Of a stretch of 39,970 nucleotides of DNA, positions 32,534-39,834 are shown in pieces. A program made the position numbers and the translations under genes. The stretch lies in assembly GCA_001045525.1 (NCBI GenBank), contig LDWW01000031.1, positions 1 to 39,970 on the forward strand, read 5' to 3'. Every line of letters begins with the position of its first letter. The stretch's first letter is position 1. The notes beneath the pieces were generated by a model. The model saw only the letters and a list, made by a program, of their open reading frames with translations, was not told where the DNA came from and made no database searches. This DNA is from Chitinispirillum alkaliphilum. Lineage in GTDB: Bacteria > Fibrobacterota > Chitinivibrionia > Chitinivibrionales > Chitinispirillaceae.

Positions 32534-34894
32534 ATGATAAAGATGAACAAAAAATGGGAAAACACCATCTATTTTGCAATATTTGCCCTCATAGTAGTTT
32601 TTCTTTTTGAAAGTTTTATATTTGACAGCAGCACTATTTTAGGTGATCAGCACAGTGACCGAATAAAGGATCTTGGAATCAAGCAGCCTTTTCAGACAGC
32701 TTTGCAGGAGCAGGGAGAGTTTTCAGTCTGGAACCCTTCAGTGCTTGGTGGAATGCCTTTAATTGATGCTACGGCCGGGGATATAGTTTATCCGCTGTCT
32801 ATACCTTTTTATTATGTTATGCCTCTTGTAAGATCAGAAGGTTTCAAGATGATCATGCATGTTTTCTTTGCAGGTGTAGCAATGTTTCTGATGCTTGCAT
32901 ATTCGTTTAAGACTACAAAATTCACCGCCTTTATTGGTGGTGTATTTTATATGCTTAATCCACAGTTTCTTTCTCATGTGATGCCGGGCCATGATGGAAA
33001 AATGTTCGTTATAGCCTGGTTGCCTCTGATTATCTGGGCCTTGAGATCCCTTATGGAAAAGCCTACAATTCTGAAAACCACTCTTTTGGCAGCTGCGATA
33101 AGTATGTCTATATATACATCACATATTCAGATGACCTACTTTTTACTGTGGGGATTATTTGCTTACTGGGTTTATATATCTGTTTTTAAATATGTCAAAG
33201 AAAAAAGTATCAAAAGTATACTACCACAGGCAGCAGGCTTTTGGTCTGCAGTTGTTCTGGCTCTTATATTGGGGGGTATCCAGCTCTATCCTGCCTTTTC
33301 CTTTGTGCAGGATGGCTGGTCGGTTAGAGGCGAAACCCGTGGTATCGATTTTGTTGCTTCTTGGAGTCTTCACTGGCCGGAATTTCTCTCACTGTGGGTA
33401 CCGGATTTCGGAAATTGGCTTCAAAATTACTGGAGTGAAAACCACTTCAAACTGAATACTGAATATGTGGGAGCGGTTGCAACACTACTCGCTGTCATGG
33501 CTTTGATAACCAGGCCGACCGGTAAAAGATTTTTCTGGTTTGGAGTAGGTGCATTTGCTGTATTGATGAGTATGGGTATTCATACTCCAGTGCTAAGGAT
33601 TGCATATTACATAATACCCGGAGTGAATAAGTTCCGTGCAATCAGTATGATAATGTTCTGGTTTGCTTTTGCTACGGTTTTGCTGGCCTGTTACTTTGTC
33701 AAGGATATATGCTCCGGATATTTTAAAAATCTTGCTCCGGAGAGAATTGAAAAAATCGAAAAGGCAACATATATCCTGATAGGGGTATCGTCGTTAGCTT
33801 TTCTGATATTTCAGAGTCAGAATTTCGTTTATCAAAGCCTTGTCTCCTTTACTGCTTCCTTACCTGAAAAGGAAAATGTATTCAGAAACAATTTTAGCCA
33901 AAATTTCGTCCCGGCTCTTTACGGGTGGTTTGCTATTGCATTGACAGTTCTTATCAGCTTCCTGCTTGTAATAAAAAACAAACTGTCTGGAACTATTTTT
34001 CTGGGCATAGTGCTTCTTCTTAGTGTAATAGATACTGTACGGGTGAATAAAAATTTCATTCGCATTGAAAATAACAGACAGTACACACATGTGCCAAAAG
34101 AGATCGAAATGTTAAGGGAAGAGATGAAGGAGGAGCCTTTCCGTGTGTTTTTTCTCCCAGGGGTCAGCCATATTCACAATGTAGCTGGCATGTACAATCT
34201 GGAAGGTCTGGGAGGATTCCATGATAATGAATTGCGCTGGTACAGGGAGTTTCGCGGACAGGGAAGTCGTGATTTTATAATACCTCTTCTTAATCAGACC
34301 GGTGATCAGTTCCAAATCCAGGCAATCCAGCAGGGACACAATAAGTTAAATGTCGCCAATTGCAAATACGTTATTGCCCGCTCTCATACGGGATTTCTGC
34401 CTATTAAAAACGAAAATTATATACCAAGACTCTCTTTTGTAACCGACTACAAGGTTCTCAGTGAAAGTGAAGCTCAGGTTATGCTGAGAAATTCCCGGTT
34501 TGACTCCAGAAGAACAGTGATTCTGGAAACTTCTCCTTCTTTTGACCCTGTTCAGACGGAAGATTTAAGTATAGATGTACAATGGATTAGCTACACTCCC
34601 AACAAAAGGGTTGCCAAGGTGACTGTTCCACGGGAAGGACTGCTGAGAATATCTGAAGTATACTATCCGGGCTGGACAATAAAAGTCAACGGAGAGGAAA
34701 AGGAAGTATACAAAAGCGATATTTCATGGATGTCTGTTCACGTGGATGGCGGAGAGCATCTGGTAGAGATGAGAGTCGATTCATTGTACCTTTCAAAGAT
34801 TATGCCCTTTTCTGTGATTACAATGTCTGCAATTCTTATATTCTGGGCCGTAATGGGGGTTAAGTACATTAAGAAGAAAAAAGCTACATCCTGA
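32534..34894 (+). CDS. YfhO-family polytopic membrane protein (putative GT-C glycosyltransferase)
   Basis: 786 residues. About a dozen membrane helices cover residues 10-500, followed by a soluble outward-facing domain and a last helix near 758-778. The early loop DSSTILGDQHSDRIKDLG (acidic, in the first outside loop), then WNPSVLGGMPL and MPGHDGKMF, are typical of YfhO proteins. The late block VYYPGWTIKVNGEE and the following WMSVHVDGGEH are also hallmarks. In Gram-positive relatives YfhO-type proteins attach sugars to teichoic acids using lipid-linked donors; here a role in surface glycan synthesis is inferred. Its TGA overlaps the next ATG (TGATG). Confidence 0.88.
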   Translation: MIKMNKKWENTIYFAIFALIVVFLFESFIFDSSTILGDQHSDRIKDLGIKQPFQTALQEQGEFSVWNPSVLGGMPLIDATAGDIVYPLSIPFYYVMPLVRSEGFKMIMHVFFAGVAMFLMLAYSFKTTKFTAFIGGVFYMLNPQFLSHVMPGHDGKMFVIAWLPLIIWALRSLMEKPTILKTTLLAAAISMSIYTSHIQMTYFLLWGLFAYWVYISVFKYVKEKSIKSILPQAAGFWSAVVLALILGGIQLYPAFSFVQDGWSVRGETRGIDFVASWSLHWPEFLSLWVPDFGNWLQNYWSENHFKLNTEYVGAVATLLAVMALITRPTGKRFFWFGVGAFAVLMSMGIHTPVLRIAYYIIPGVNKFRAISMIMFWFAFATVLLACYFVKDICSGYFKNLAPERIEKIEKATYILIGVSSLAFLIFQSQNFVYQSLVSFTASLPEKENVFRNNFSQNFVPALYGWFAIALTVLISFLLVIKNKLSGTIFLGIVLLLSVIDTVRVNKNFIRIENNRQYTHVPKEIEMLREEMKEEPFRVFFLPGVSHIHNVAGMYNLEGLGGFHDNELRWYREFRGQGSRDFIIPLLNQTGDQFQIQAIQQGHNKLNVANCKYVIARSHTGFLPIKNENYIPRLSFVTDYKVLSESEAQVMLRNSRFDSRRTVILETSPSFDPVQTEDLSIDVQWISYTPNKRVAKVTVPREGLLRISEVYYPGWTIKVNGEEKEVYKSDISWMSVHVDGGEHLVEMRVDSLYLSKIMPFSVITMSAILIFWAVMGVKYIKKKKATS

Positions 34895-36114
34895 TGAAAG
34901 TATTAACTCTAACTCATGTATTTCCGCGCAGCAGAGAAGACACTGTTGCGCCTTTTCTGTGGAATTTTCAGCAGGCTCTTGTTGAAAATGGGATTGAAGC
35001 GATAGTTTGTGCTCCTCACAATAAGGGCCTTCCGTTGAAAGAAAACTATCCCGGTTACAGAGTTGAACGTTTCAGATATGCTGCTGAAAATATGGAAATT
35101 CTGGCTTACAGGGGACAAATGCATGAGCTTGTGTTTAAAAACTTTTTAAACAAACTGATATTCGCACAATACATGGTGTGCGGGTTTGTAAAGCTATGCA
35201 GTCTTTTGAAAAGAGAAAAACCAGATCTTGTACATGTGCACTGGTGGGTCCCTTCAGGCATTATCATGTACGCAGCTTCACTCCTTTTCAAAACCCCGTT
35301 TATAATCACAACACACGGTACAGATGTCTTCATAGTGCGTAAATTCAAGTTTCTTAAATCTATTATGAAGAGAATCTTCGGTAAAGCCGGTAGGATACAT
35401 GTTATTTCTACTTATCTTAGTGATTACCTGACAGAAAACCTCAAAATCGATAAGAATAAGATTGATATCATCTCTATGCCAGTAAGGGAAGACAAAATAC
35501 CTTTACAAGCTCCGGGATTTCGCGATGGAACAAAACTCCTTTTCGTAGGTAGATTGATTAAGAGAAAGGGTGTTGATGTACTGCTGAAAAGCCTGGAACT
35601 GCTGCCTGAAAGCTATCAGTTAACAATCGTAGGTGTAGGGCCTGAAGAGCAAAATCTGAAAAAGCTTTGCAGTGACAAGAAACTTAATTCCAGAGTAAAT
35701 TTTTTACCCAATGTTTCACCTGACGAACTGCCTTCCGTTTTTAACCAGTCTGAGATTTTTATACTGCCATCGCTGACAGATTGGAAGGGGGAAAAAGAGG
35801 GTTTGGGTATGGTACTTCTGGAAGCACAGAGGATGGGCCTTGCTTTAATAGCCTCAAAATCCGGTGGTATGACAGATATTGTCATACACAATGAAACTGG
35901 TCTTCTTTTTGAAGAAGGCGATTTTCTTGGTTTAGCAGAGAATATTAAAAGATACTCTGACAGGGAGTTCTTTGAGAAAATGGTAATCGGAGCACAGTCG
36001 CATTATGAAAAGAACTATGCTCAACAGACAATTGCTAAAAAAACAGTCGTCTCCTACAATCTTGCCCGTCAAAAATTACCGGCTGTCTCTCAAAACCCAT
36101 CAACAACACACTGA
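34894..36114 (+). CDS. GT4-family glycosyltransferase
   Basis: 406 residues, GT-B fold. The N-terminal half begins KVLTLTHVFPR, with HVHWWVPSG and TTHGTDVF in the acceptor/donor cleft. The C-terminal half has LLFVGRLIKRKGVDVLL and the EGLGMVLLEA nucleotide-sugar motif with E302 and E310 (E-x7-E). The family uses NDP-sugars and retains anomeric configuration. It begins at an ATG that overlaps the TGA of the YfhO-like gene, so translation is coupled and the two likely act in one surface-glycan or glycolipid pathway. The acceptor is unknown. Confidence 0.92.
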   Translation: MKVLTLTHVFPRSREDTVAPFLWNFQQALVENGIEAIVCAPHNKGLPLKENYPGYRVERFRYAAENMEILAYRGQMHELVFKNFLNKLIFAQYMVCGFVKLCSLLKREKPDLVHVHWWVPSGIIMYAASLLFKTPFIITTHGTDVFIVRKFKFLKSIMKRIFGKAGRIHVISTYLSDYLTENLKIDKNKIDIISMPVREDKIPLQAPGFRDGTKLLFVGRLIKRKGVDVLLKSLELLPESYQLTIVGVGPEEQNLKKLCSDKKLNSRVNFLPNVSPDELPSVFNQSEIFILPSLTDWKGEKEGLGMVLLEAQRMGLALIASKSGGMTDIVIHNETGLLFEEGDFLGLAENIKRYSDREFFEKMVIGAQSHYEKNYAQQTIAKKTVVSYNLARQKLPAVSQNPSTTH

Positions 36115-36784
36115 CCCCTTTGGAAATGCAGGACGAATTTCCTCTCTTGGAATAAACCTGGTCTTTTAAACGAGAATTTTTAACCAAATTAGTTTATTGA
36201 AAAATTAGAATAGGTTAAAGGTTTTCCGGTGTGCTTTTCAGAGTTCAATTTCAGTAACCTCTAATGGTAGATGGGAAAAGCATTCCCCTGGTTGCAGCTC
36301 CCTCTTTGGCAGACCCATCGGGATCTTCCACCACCCCTTCAATGCGGTCGGGGATTTATACTGATCACAGCCAAAGTATCACGGGGGCACAGTTCGGCAA
36401 TTCGTGTTTTCAGAATCTTTGAATATATCATTATACTTTGTATTATCCCTCTTTATTTCGTGCCTTTTGTGTATTTCTTGGTTTATCTACCCCACTAAGT
36501 TTTATTAAATTCAGGGATTCCATATTCCAGTCAGGTGGTACAGAATCTGGCTCCTTTTATTTGCTGAAAGATAAAGACAAACTCCTAAAAGTAAAAATTG
36601 ATTTCTTTTCACATACACACCCGCTGTAAAGATACAATATACATTTAATAAGGTTGTGATATTTGGAAGACTTGGATTCAATTTGTAAGTGCAAACCATA
36701 TCACATAGCATGAAACCTCTATGTAAATCATAAAAACAGAAACAAGAATATGGGCGCCTCCCTCCGAGGACTCCGAACTGAAAT
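36115..36784. other. Gene-poor region left of the repeat array
   Basis: Several short open frames exist on both strands, but none has a ribosome site with a recognisable product. The stretch 36764-36784 (beginning CCGAGGACTCCG) loosely resembles one more degenerate repeat unit. No tRNA or terminator is seen. Confidence 0.4.
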
Positions 36785-37082
36785 GTTAGAAACATGGCCT
36801 TAAATGTTAGAAACATGGCCTTAAAAGTTAGGAACAAGGCCTGAAAAGTTTAGGAACAAGGCCTGAAAAGTTTAGGAACAAGGCCTGAAAAGTTTAGGAA
36901 CAAGGCCTGAAAAGTTTAGGAACAAGGCCTGAAAAGTTAGGAACAAGGCCTGAAAAGTTAGGAACAAGGCCTGAAAAGTTAGGAACAAGGCCTGAAAAGT
37001 TAGGAACAAGGCCTGAAAAGTTAGGAACAAGGCCTGAAAAGTTAGGAACAAGGCCTGAAAAGTTAGGAACAAGGCCTGATTT
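36785..37082 (+). repeat. Tandem 21/22-bp repeat array, 14 units
   Basis: The unit is GTTAGGAACAAGGCCTG followed by four A. Units 1-2 (36785-36826) are diverged (GTTAGAAACATGGCCTTAAA). Units 3-14 are almost identical; four of them (36848-36935) carry an extra T (GTTTAGG, 22 bp). The last unit ends in TGATTT. No spacers separate the units, so this is not a CRISPR. On the minus strand the array reads as heptapeptide repeats (SGLVPNF or QALFLTF) because 21 is divisible by 3, but the 22-bp units break the frame. Confidence 0.97.
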
Positions 37083-37086
37083 TGCT

Positions 37087-37254
37087 GCCAAAGCACCTGT
37101 TCCGAACATTTTTAGGCCTGTTTCAACCGTTTTTGACCATGTTTCTATGATTTTTGTTATTGTTCCAGAGAGATTGATAGCTGTTCCTTGCTATTTTGGC
37201 CATGTTTCTACCGATTCTGTGGTTGTTCCTAACATTTATGGTGATGTTCCTAAC
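37087..37254 (-). repeat. Degenerate 21-bp repeats in opposite orientation, 8 units
   Basis: Starting 4 bases after the forward array, eight consecutive 21-bp units carry the reverse complement of the same motif. Each has TGTTYC at positions 12-17 of the unit (for example the last two end TGTTCCTAAC). Several contain GGCCATGTTTCTA, which is the reverse complement of the diverged forward units 1-2. The exact 21-base phase over 168 bases is directly visible; the units are much more diverged than those of the forward half. Confidence 0.85.
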
Positions 37255-37367
37255 TTTTTTGCTTTAAACAACCCTCTTTTGGTAACATTTGCATTCATAT
37301 AAGCACATCCTGTTTTCCGTTGGGGTCTAAATTGGATTCAACAAAATTTACCAATGATCAGGAACAG

Positions 37368-37518
37368 ATGTAAAACTGATTTCTTTTCTGAGTCGCTCGA
37401 CAGGTTTCTTCATCAGCCGATGTGATCATAATGGAAGGAGAAAGCTACAGAATCAAAAACCGGATAGGTATTGATCATGCCTCCAGGCAGGAGGGATATG
37501 CAATGGTAACATAGTAGA
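37368..37518 (+). pseudogene. Fragment resembling the C-terminus of IS21 IstB
   Basis: One frame reads DFFSESLDRFLHQ, and after a one-base shift another reads ADVIIMEGESYRIKNR and then continues to TAG at 37518. Together this resembles the IstB/DnaC-like helper-ATPase ending (A-x-LDRLxH-x-A-x-x-I-x-x-xGESxR). No upstream Walker motifs or IstA are visible, so it is a decayed tail only. The match is by eye over about 30 residues. Confidence 0.4.
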
Positions 37519-37702
37519 TGAATGTGCGGTAAAGGAGTGTGTCATTGCCGATGTCAAATAAGAATCGTCATACAGTATGTATCTTTAAGGGATTGGTGTC
37601 TGTCTCAAAACAGAATGCCCCGGAATCTGAAGTTAAGCCCTGAATACTTTTTCCTATAAATAATATAGCAGCAGTTGCTTTGATGAGCGCTTCGTTCAAC
37701 AG

Positions 37703-37733
37703 GTTTTTTCTGCATCCTGAATGCAGAAAAAAC
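37703..37733. terminator. Strong hairpin with A/T arms, possible bidirectional terminator
   Basis: A perfect 13-bp stem (37703-37715 GTTTTTTCTGCAT, 37721-37733 its complement) encloses a 5-base loop. The arms end in runs of T/A, giving an intrinsic-terminator look, but the GC part is small. It lies 160 bases downstream of the minus-strand PIN-like gene and could end that transcript. Confidence 0.5.
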
Positions 37734-37893
37734 GCTTGATGTTGTGCGGAGTTCTGGAGCATTTTTTGACCTGCTGCTCTTTTTTCTGTGCCGATATTAT
37801 TCTAATATCTGCGCGAATCCCATCTCTTTTCTGTTGTTTTGTTGAGTTCTTCGTTGCATTCTGTCCGCTTTGAATTGATTGGTATGCTATAGA

Positions 37894-39834
37894 TCATAAG
37901 CACGGGTTTTTGGAAATTATTTTCTCTGCCAAAAAAGTGATTTTTTCGATCCCTTCTTTCTGGGTTAATACTCTAAAAAACATACGACCAAATGCGGTTG
38001 CCATGCTTGGATAGTTACAAGAAAATACTTTTTGTGCCAACTTTTTAATGTAATTAGCATTAGTAGCAATGGACGATGAAAGGTAAACAAATGTAATAAA
38101 TGCTGTGAGTACTACTGAATCTTTGTTAACTACAAAAGCGATTACTGAAAGAATTGTTGTTACTAGTAAAGACAAAATTGAGAGTAGAATAAAATATGGA
38201 AAACTTGCATTTGCATATCTACGTTTGTATGAAATATAATTAGGGTTGTCGATAATTTTTATAACTTGCAAATTGAAGTGATTATCTTTATTGTTTTTAT
38301 ATTCTTCTACAGTAGTTGAATTGAAAAACACTGCATCTAGAATACTTTCAGCATTAACCTCAATTTTTGATGATAATTCTGTTACTTTTGTAGCTGTTTT
38401 AAGATCAAGTCGTGTTCCCTGTAGGCATTTTGATAAAATGATTTTAGCTTCAAAATTCATTTTTACTTTGGGGTCGAGAATCCAAATCATTCCAGCTAGT
38501 TCATAGTCAAGGTAAGCATACGGAATTTCTCTTTGACCGATGTTGTTTTTATTCCAACTCCGTAGTTTTTTAGAACAGGTAACTATTAATGCATTTGCTT
38601 GTTCAAACTTGGTAACCACACTTCGCCTTCTACTTCTGACAACCTGACATATTGACATTAAATAATCAGTTTGATTCTCTGCCCGGGCACATATTTCTGG
38701 AGGAATTTTATTATACTCTTCAGAATTTATCATGTCTTCAAAATTGTCGGGAATGGGCATTTCTGTCTGAATAGGAAAATGTCGATTTTTTCTTCTGCTT
38801 ATTTCCCTCTTAGTCGCACTAACTAAACTCCGGTTAAGTAAATCTCTGTATGAAGAGTGTGCTTTGTCGATTGTTGTAATATTTTGAACAATTGTTCCTA
38901 TACCAAAGTTATTGAAAAGAATTGCTTCAATATTCCTAGAGATGTTATCCAGTTCTGTTGCTGTAATACCCTTTCTAATACAGGCAGCTGTAATTCCTTC
39001 CATATATCTTGCAATTTGTGGGCTTATTACGTCACCACTACGTTGATAATTTTTTAACGATTCAATGGCACCATCGAATATTTTGTGAAGATCCTCAATT
39101 GTTATGGACAATACTGAAAGTTTAAACCCTGCATTTTTGTAAATCTTTAAACACTCAAAAGCGGCATTGTAGAGCAAGGGTTCTTGCAAATCTAATAAGC
39201 GAAGCAAAAAATTTGTATCAAAAAAAAGAACTATATTTTTTGCAGATTCCAGACGTGACGGCAACCCGTTCGTTAAAGGGGCTGATGTCAATAGACGAGA
39301 ATATATCTCTGACAATATAAGCTGTTCAAAAAAAATGTAGATTTCGCTGTTTTTTAATGCTTCTTGCTCTAGAAAGTGGGCTAACTGTTGCAATTCAGGC
39401 TCATTGATTTCCAATGCTATGGAATCAGTGTTTTGAACCTTGTAGTCAGAATTAACGGATATTAATTTTTCTAATACCTGTTCTAAATTGTCTATATTGG
39501 GTAAGTATTCATGACAATGTTTTATTAGTTTTTCATATTCTGATCGATACTTCTTTTTTTGCACTTCGGTTTGTTGATAATTGTTCGTTCGCTCAATCGT
39601 ATGGGACTTATAATGTAGATTAAAATTTGGTGATTTATCTACAAGATATCTTATCACGGGGTCATTAACAGAAATCCCATATGCTGCATTTATTTGATTG
39701 ATTGCATTTTCTATCGAGATTGATTTTTTGTTGCCGATTCCGATGTTCAAAATGTGCAAAAAGGCAGTACAAATATCTACATCTTTGTCTGTGTGTAGTC
39801 GAATAAAATTGTACTTATGAGCTAAGGTATTCAT
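37894..39834 (-). CDS. PIN-like nuclease-domain protein with C-terminal membrane helices
   Basis: 646 residues; no full-length family recognised. An N-terminal helical region (about 1-190) leads to a PIN-like start, IVLFFDTNFLLRLLDL (D206, N208). A conserved-looking acidic residue (E247 in ITIEDLH) and D390 (NQTDYLM) could complete a metal site. IVTCSKKLRSW (about 417-427) resembles the last PIN strand but lacks its usual Asp. Two membrane helices follow near 546-570 and 575-592. GAGGGG is 4 bases before the ATG. Codon use is more AT-rich than in the neighbours. RNA cleavage in a toxin or phage-defence role is inference. Confidence 0.6.
   Translation of the reverse strand: MNTLAHKYNFIRLHTDKDVDICTAFLHILNIGIGNKKSISIENAINQINAAYGISVNDPVIRYLVDKSPNFNLHYKSHTIERTNNYQQTEVQKKKYRSEYEKLIKHCHEYLPNIDNLEQVLEKLISVNSDYKVQNTDSIALEINEPELQQLAHFLEQEALKNSEIYIFFEQLILSEIYSRLLTSAPLTNGLPSRLESAKNIVLFFDTNFLLRLLDLQEPLLYNAAFECLKIYKNAGFKLSVLSITIEDLHKIFDGAIESLKNYQRSGDVISPQIARYMEGITAACIRKGITATELDNISRNIEAILFNNFGIGTIVQNITTIDKAHSSYRDLLNRSLVSATKREISRRKNRHFPIQTEMPIPDNFEDMINSEEYNKIPPEICARAENQTDYLMSICQVVRSRRRSVVTKFEQANALIVTCSKKLRSWNKNNIGQREIPYAYLDYELAGMIWILDPKVKMNFEAKIILSKCLQGTRLDLKTATKVTELSSKIEVNAESILDAVFFNSTTVEEYKNNKDNHFNLQVIKIIDNPNYISYKRRYANASFPYFILLSILSLLVTTILSVIAFVVNKDSVVLTAFITFVYLSSSIATNANYIKKLAQKVFSCNYPSMATAFGRMFFRVLTQKEGIEKITFLAEKIISKNPCL

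Follow-up and report, generated by a model that had tools for sequence, protein, structure and literature searches.

The 21-bp repeat array in the window, a stretch of 39,970 nucleotides from Chitinispirillum alkaliphilum, is an orphan copy of a dispersed element, some other copies of which stand beside genes of a protein family whose members are 240–300 residues long. We judge it rather probable that these arrays are binding sites for the protein encoded next to them. Profile searches found no gene of the array-linked family on the window contig, and the gene pairs beside two further arrays of the same genome, on contigs C21 and C59, are the presumed cognates of the window array. The dispersed copies and their link to a protein family emerged from searching this genome and related genomes, as the first-pass annotation of the window had proposed; neither is visible from the window alone.

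The array spans positions 36789–37265 and consists of a 26-bp centre flanked by 14 forward units on one side and 8 reverse units on the other. Its variable arm (36789–37071, minus strand) holds 14 units that read TGTTYC plus 15 bp on the minus strand, appearing as GRAACA cores on the forward strand; the outer two units are diverged and the inner ones homogenised. The centre (37072–37097, unstranded) runs from the last GRAACA to the first TGTTYC. The fixed arm (37098–37265, plus strand) has exactly 8 units of TGTTYC plus 15 bp, with degenerate linkers; its eight cores lie at 37098–37250 and its last unit ends at 37265. The first-pass annotation had described 14 forward units meeting eight reverse-oriented ones at the centre, and both sets were located (GRAACA 14 times, TGTTYC 8 times), as was the resemblance of forward units 1–2 to the reverse half. 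The junction that it gave as 4 bases is a constant 26 bp from GRAACA to TGTTYC, and the exact 21-base phase that it saw on both sides is kept in the reverse arm, where 8 of 8 units are in register, and lost in the outer part of the forward arm, where the spacing (21, 21, 22, 22, 22, 22, 21…21) includes four 22-bp steps. It had also warned that the reverse units might match the motif no better than shuffled sequence; that concern falls away, since they form a chain of 8 GTTYC against a maximum of 2 in 5000 dinucleotide shuffles. An assembly artefact, its other concern, is unlikely because related arrays occur at four further loci of the genome and the reads behind the assembly had a mean length of 554 bp (PMC4814513), which exceeds the 300 bp of the forward arm. 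The published assembly of C. alkaliphilum ACht6-1, a member of the Fibrobacterota, comprises 160 contigs with an N50 of 123,925 and a total of 4.43 Mb (PMC4814513). The array was rejected as coding sequence, given its 22-bp steps and the stop codons that interrupt every one of the six frames over 36785–37313.

Beyond the fixed arm, an unstranded tail (37266–37313) is conserved with the C21 copy; the two part after ...AAGCACATCCTGT, and the C53 copy parts a few bases earlier. The left flank (36268–36776, unstranded) is 95% shared with the C53 copy and is context outside the array, a mosaic of other dispersed repeats. Such repeats, with up to tens of genome copies, occupy 36268–36400, 36530–36670 and 37373–37750, and the family at 36268–36400, which has a GGGAAAAGCATTTCCC-like palindrome, recurs beside some of the four modules of gene and array whose duplication is described below. 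The two flanking genes are convergent. The left one (34894–36114, plus strand) encodes a glycosyltransferase (Pfam group 1), with nothing pointing to its membership of the array system; the right one (37894–39834, minus strand) encodes a 646-residue protein without a Pfam match and outside the array-linked family, in which a PIN-like motif (VLFFDTNFLLRLLD) can be seen by eye.

The arrays hold both their core and their period. In the 8-unit arms, which total 104 units, TGTTYC is nearly invariant (T in 99, G in 102, T in 104, T in 104, Y in 104 and C in 102), while the 15-bp linkers drift. Between the window and C59 copies, 5 of 48 core positions and 58 of 120 linker positions have changed; between L118 and the copy in the sister species (G001), the figures are 2 of 48 and 52 of 120. 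Neighbouring cores are exactly 21 bp apart in 326 of 349 steps. The 26-bp centre is common to the arrays at C21, C53, C59, G001:C51 and G006:C2, with sequences unrelated between classes; only G000 (the C. alkaliphilum genome), C59, G001 and G006:C2 are unbiased for its length, the other loci of G006 having been found with a pattern that fixes 26 bp. Across the junction the innermost core centres are separated by 32 bp, or about three helical turns, and within an arm the step of 21 bp is two turns, so the cores of both arms lie on one face of the DNA. A protein-binding array with its sites on one helical face, which the first-pass annotation had raised, is the best-supported reading.

TGTTYC-class arrays occur at five places in the C. 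alkaliphilum genome (the window, C21, C53, C22 and C59), at one in the sister species (C51 of G001) and at no fewer than 12 in G006, a genome of another genus. Every copy carries TGTTYC each 21 bp in two diverging arms. Most have exactly 8 degenerate units in one arm and a homogenised second arm of 8 to 25 units, which bears out the earlier suggestion that the inverted array is old and that one of its arms was homogenised recently; a few copies in G006 have both arms expanded. Similarity between copies stops from a few to ~200 bp beyond the arrays, so the copies occupy different surroundings, the exception being a 500-bp left flank common to the window and C53. The copies favour neither side of genes. 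A scan of genome contigs gave only two 2+2 matches, neither with an array. At C53 (L015, 2566–2700), an IS256-like end and a transposase N-terminus, recognised by eye, interrupt the array tail, and the C22 copy is truncated by an end that matches this IS256-like end. A Cas1-like gene was noticed by eye near C21. We rejected a CRISPR array as the identity of the element: the 21-bp units have no spacers, and no cas family recurs at the other loci.

Five loci, spread over three genera, have the TGTTYC array 150–390 bp from one or two genes of ~260 codons, the 3′ end of which faces the array. These array-adjoining genes form the A1 subfamily, from which profile A1 was built, followed by A2 and A3 from wider members. 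Of 168 Fibrobacterota genomes, 19, all of one order, carry family genes by these profiles, more than 60 in total and up to 15 per genome. Almost all of the members inspected by eye adjoin a tandem array of ~21 bp or a multiple thereof, each built on a core of its own (CAAATATA, CGCAAGA, GCGCAGTGGG, TCAGG and CTAACGG among them). In an unbiased test of lags 10–63, 38 of 61 testable 3′ flanks were significantly periodic, 36 of these at 20–22, 41–44 or 62–63 bp; among 5′ flanks 12 of 63 were significant, 8 at 21-bp-type lags, and none of 96 control genes from the same loci had such a lag. The 3′ flanks with no significant array (23 of 61) include some gene fragments and contig ends. A strong intrinsic terminator stands close behind the gene, between it and the array, in 21 of 61 cases, so the array is probably outside the mRNA at those loci. 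The genes are under purifying selection (dN/dS of 0.08–0.35 between paralogue pairs), and at four near-identical modules in C. alkaliphilum the gene and the array region have been duplicated together; the array of these modules is weak and degenerate (lag 22, z 5.3–6.4). No relative of the proteins was found in Pfam or the PDB, nor can a DNA-binding domain be recognised in them; their median pI is 6.0 and their C-terminus is only modestly basic. The A1 and A2 alignments contain no conserved His pair, and in A2 no columns but E36 and Y235 are invariant.

Several family loci carry further repeats. Directly behind one of the four near-identical genes (L210, G000:C12) is a MITE-like insert of ~128 bp with terminal inverted repeats TCCGGCAATTA/TAATTGCCGGA, which recurs behind the C26 gene (L162, from ~7470). 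Large tandem arrays with 132-bp and 103-bp units containing CACGAAACA/TTTCGTG lie on C6 (L163, 2110–2879 and 16405–17124), close to genes of the family and remnants of genes. In G006, family genes also occur as divergent pairs (L220 and L226, on C17 and C8). At C17, the plus-strand gene has an inverted array with a different core next to it; the same holds for its relative at C15 (L234). There, from ~2070, the 21-bp array gives way to a long, degenerate satellite with a unit of ~12 bp (GTATGTATGCGG).

Unit sequences vary between loci, with some thirty that are unrelated, and the period stays constant. TGTTYC is kept in one subfamily over three genera and TCAGG is common to two species; within one genome, the cores of paralogues often differ. 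In G008, proteins that are 91% identical nevertheless have different cores, so specificity would need to change very fast. If modules have to avoid cross-reaction, such fast core change among co-resident paralogues is what one would expect. Over the whole family, the correlation between unit sequence and protein identity is marginal (Mantel r 0.157, permutation maximum 0.165) in a weak 6-mer test, which overlooks the TCAGG core common to the G031 and G025 loci, and we make no claim of family-wide co-evolution of unit and protein.

The family reaches a second phylum. Searching 395 Bacteroidota genomes with A3 returned five distant homologues in four genomes (E 3e-13 to 5e-4), four of which have a 5′-flank array with a best lag of 21 or 42 (z 5.4–13.5); the fifth has a weak hint only (lag 42, z 4.5). 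The array side differs between the phyla, being 3′ in Fibrobacterota and 5′ in Bacteroidota. One Bacteroidota homologue, L248, scores 246 bits against NCBIfam NF052641, "PQLLE family protein", above the curated cut-off of 80 bits and the only one seen to pass it. The other four score 34–50 bits, below the cut-off. Of the Fibrobacterota members of A3, 12 of 22 give weak matches (best E 6e-8; 18 bits for one member). Four of the five homologues that resemble NF052641 carry 21-bp arrays, whereas the model itself is silent on arrays and function. The open-access papers searched yielded no function for, or mention of, PQLLE.

The data establish dispersal, linkage to the gene family, the period, constraint on core and protein, and joint duplication of gene and array; from these patterns we infer DNA binding, cooperative assembly and a biological role for the family. 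The TGTTYC sites would be recognised by one or both products of the A/B gene pair beside the C21 and C59 arrays, and assembly of the protein could proceed outwards from the 26-bp centre over the two arms, with its sites all facing one side of the DNA. The wider family would behave alike: each gene would have beside it an array that repeats every 21 bp and is built on a core of its own. The module of gene plus array can be duplicated as a whole, and arrays also spread alone. The most likely role would be that of a self-propagating or domesticated module, the array holding or titrating its protein by a logic comparable to that of iterons. The chief difficulty for the binding reading is that cores turn over more quickly than the proteins; the lack of a recognisable DNA-binding domain, the median pI, the 3′ flanks with no significant array and the different array side in the two phyla also count against it.

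The family protein could instead be an enzyme or recruiter whose action both spreads and expands the arrays, on the model of RAYT and REPINs, with the window array a non-autonomous copy. This we regard as unlikely, although the arrays are dispersed both with and without the gene, the gene-bearing module has been duplicated at four sites, and a fixed 8-unit arm is paired with an expanded one. Neither target-site duplications nor common precise ends were established, there is no match to a transposase family, and the alignments have no conserved catalytic His pair. In the RAYT (TnpA-REP) and REP/REPIN system (PMC3116915), a gene is linked to a repeat type, gene-less copies are dispersed and several types occur per genome. 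The array family shares all three traits, but the HUH motif that marks RAYT proteins, along with a catalytic Tyr, is missing, the A1 and A2 alignments conserving no pair of His residues, and the units are not hairpin palindromes: 21-bp direct repeats with a 6–9 bp core and a fixed 21-bp step stand against palindromic hairpins of 20–40 bp.

A segregation or replication module, with the arrays serving a ParR- or Rep-like protein as centromere-like or iteron-like sites, we consider very unlikely. Direct repeats with a two-turn step beside a gene would suit such a system, and the different cores of paralogues in the same genome are what incompatibility demands. The Rep and Par Pfam domains are, however, all absent, no replication gene or motor NTPase family recurs among the neighbours (the result that also counts against the partition-like site of the first-pass annotation), no family member occurs in 72,556 plasmid records, and chromosomes carry up to 15 copies. 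Viral contigs and phages, also searched as carriers, had no family member, and PADLOC gave no match of note that would mark a defence system. As in ParR/parC, a small protein gene lies next to a repeat array and specificity differs between paralogues; here there is no ParM or ParA partner, and the 240–300-residue proteins have no ParR domain. In iterons, a gene adjoins direct repeats spaced by about two helical turns. The likeness to iteron-Rep systems lies in this arrangement, whereas here there are many paralogues per genome, 8–40 units that are sometimes inverted, no significant Pfam match to a Rep domain (e.g. Rep_3), and no member found on plasmids. By analogy, the arrays may work like an iteron array, and we do not class them as iterons.

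That the arrays are functionless satellites expanded by slippage, with the gene link a matter of hitch-hiking, is disfavoured and just as improbable. Homogenised arms, quick turnover of unit sequence and occasional 20- and 22-bp steps would fit, but a 21-bp period that is constant over about thirty unrelated unit sequences and two phyla, cores that are kept while linkers drift, and the absence of such arrays from all 96 control genes would not. Hardly probable at all is transcription of the inverted arms into a long imperfect hairpin, an RNA structure for which the array folds better than shuffles (z −8.0, expected and uninformative because shuffles destroy any inverted repeat) and its linkers can pair more than composition predicts (0.62 vs 0.38, much of it accounted for by an extended core), since most family arrays have a single orientation, the window has no Rfam match at gathering threshold, which led us to reject an RNA family, and a constant centre length is unexpected of a loop.

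Binding sites for the neighbouring protein thus remain our preferred reading, and the pairing of gene and array looks like an undescribed protein-plus-DNA-target system; no description of one was found in open-access papers, and a subscription-journal account may exist. A broader proposal, plausible and held tentatively, is that these are an unrecognised class of module found across phyla, a small protein with its own 21-bp satellite at up to ~15 per genome, the cores of which shift repeatedly, keeping apart the modules that share a genome, while the one-face geometry is fixed. If this is true, a family that has no Pfam entry, and has been named in part by NCBI without a function, gains a testable partner in the neighbouring array. 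Near-identical proteins with different cores would then reveal how DNA specificity shifts, and could be a source of orthogonal binding modules. The combination of a fixed step and a fast-changing sequence recalls centromeric satellites, but in bacteria, and with proteins that can be expressed in a laboratory host.
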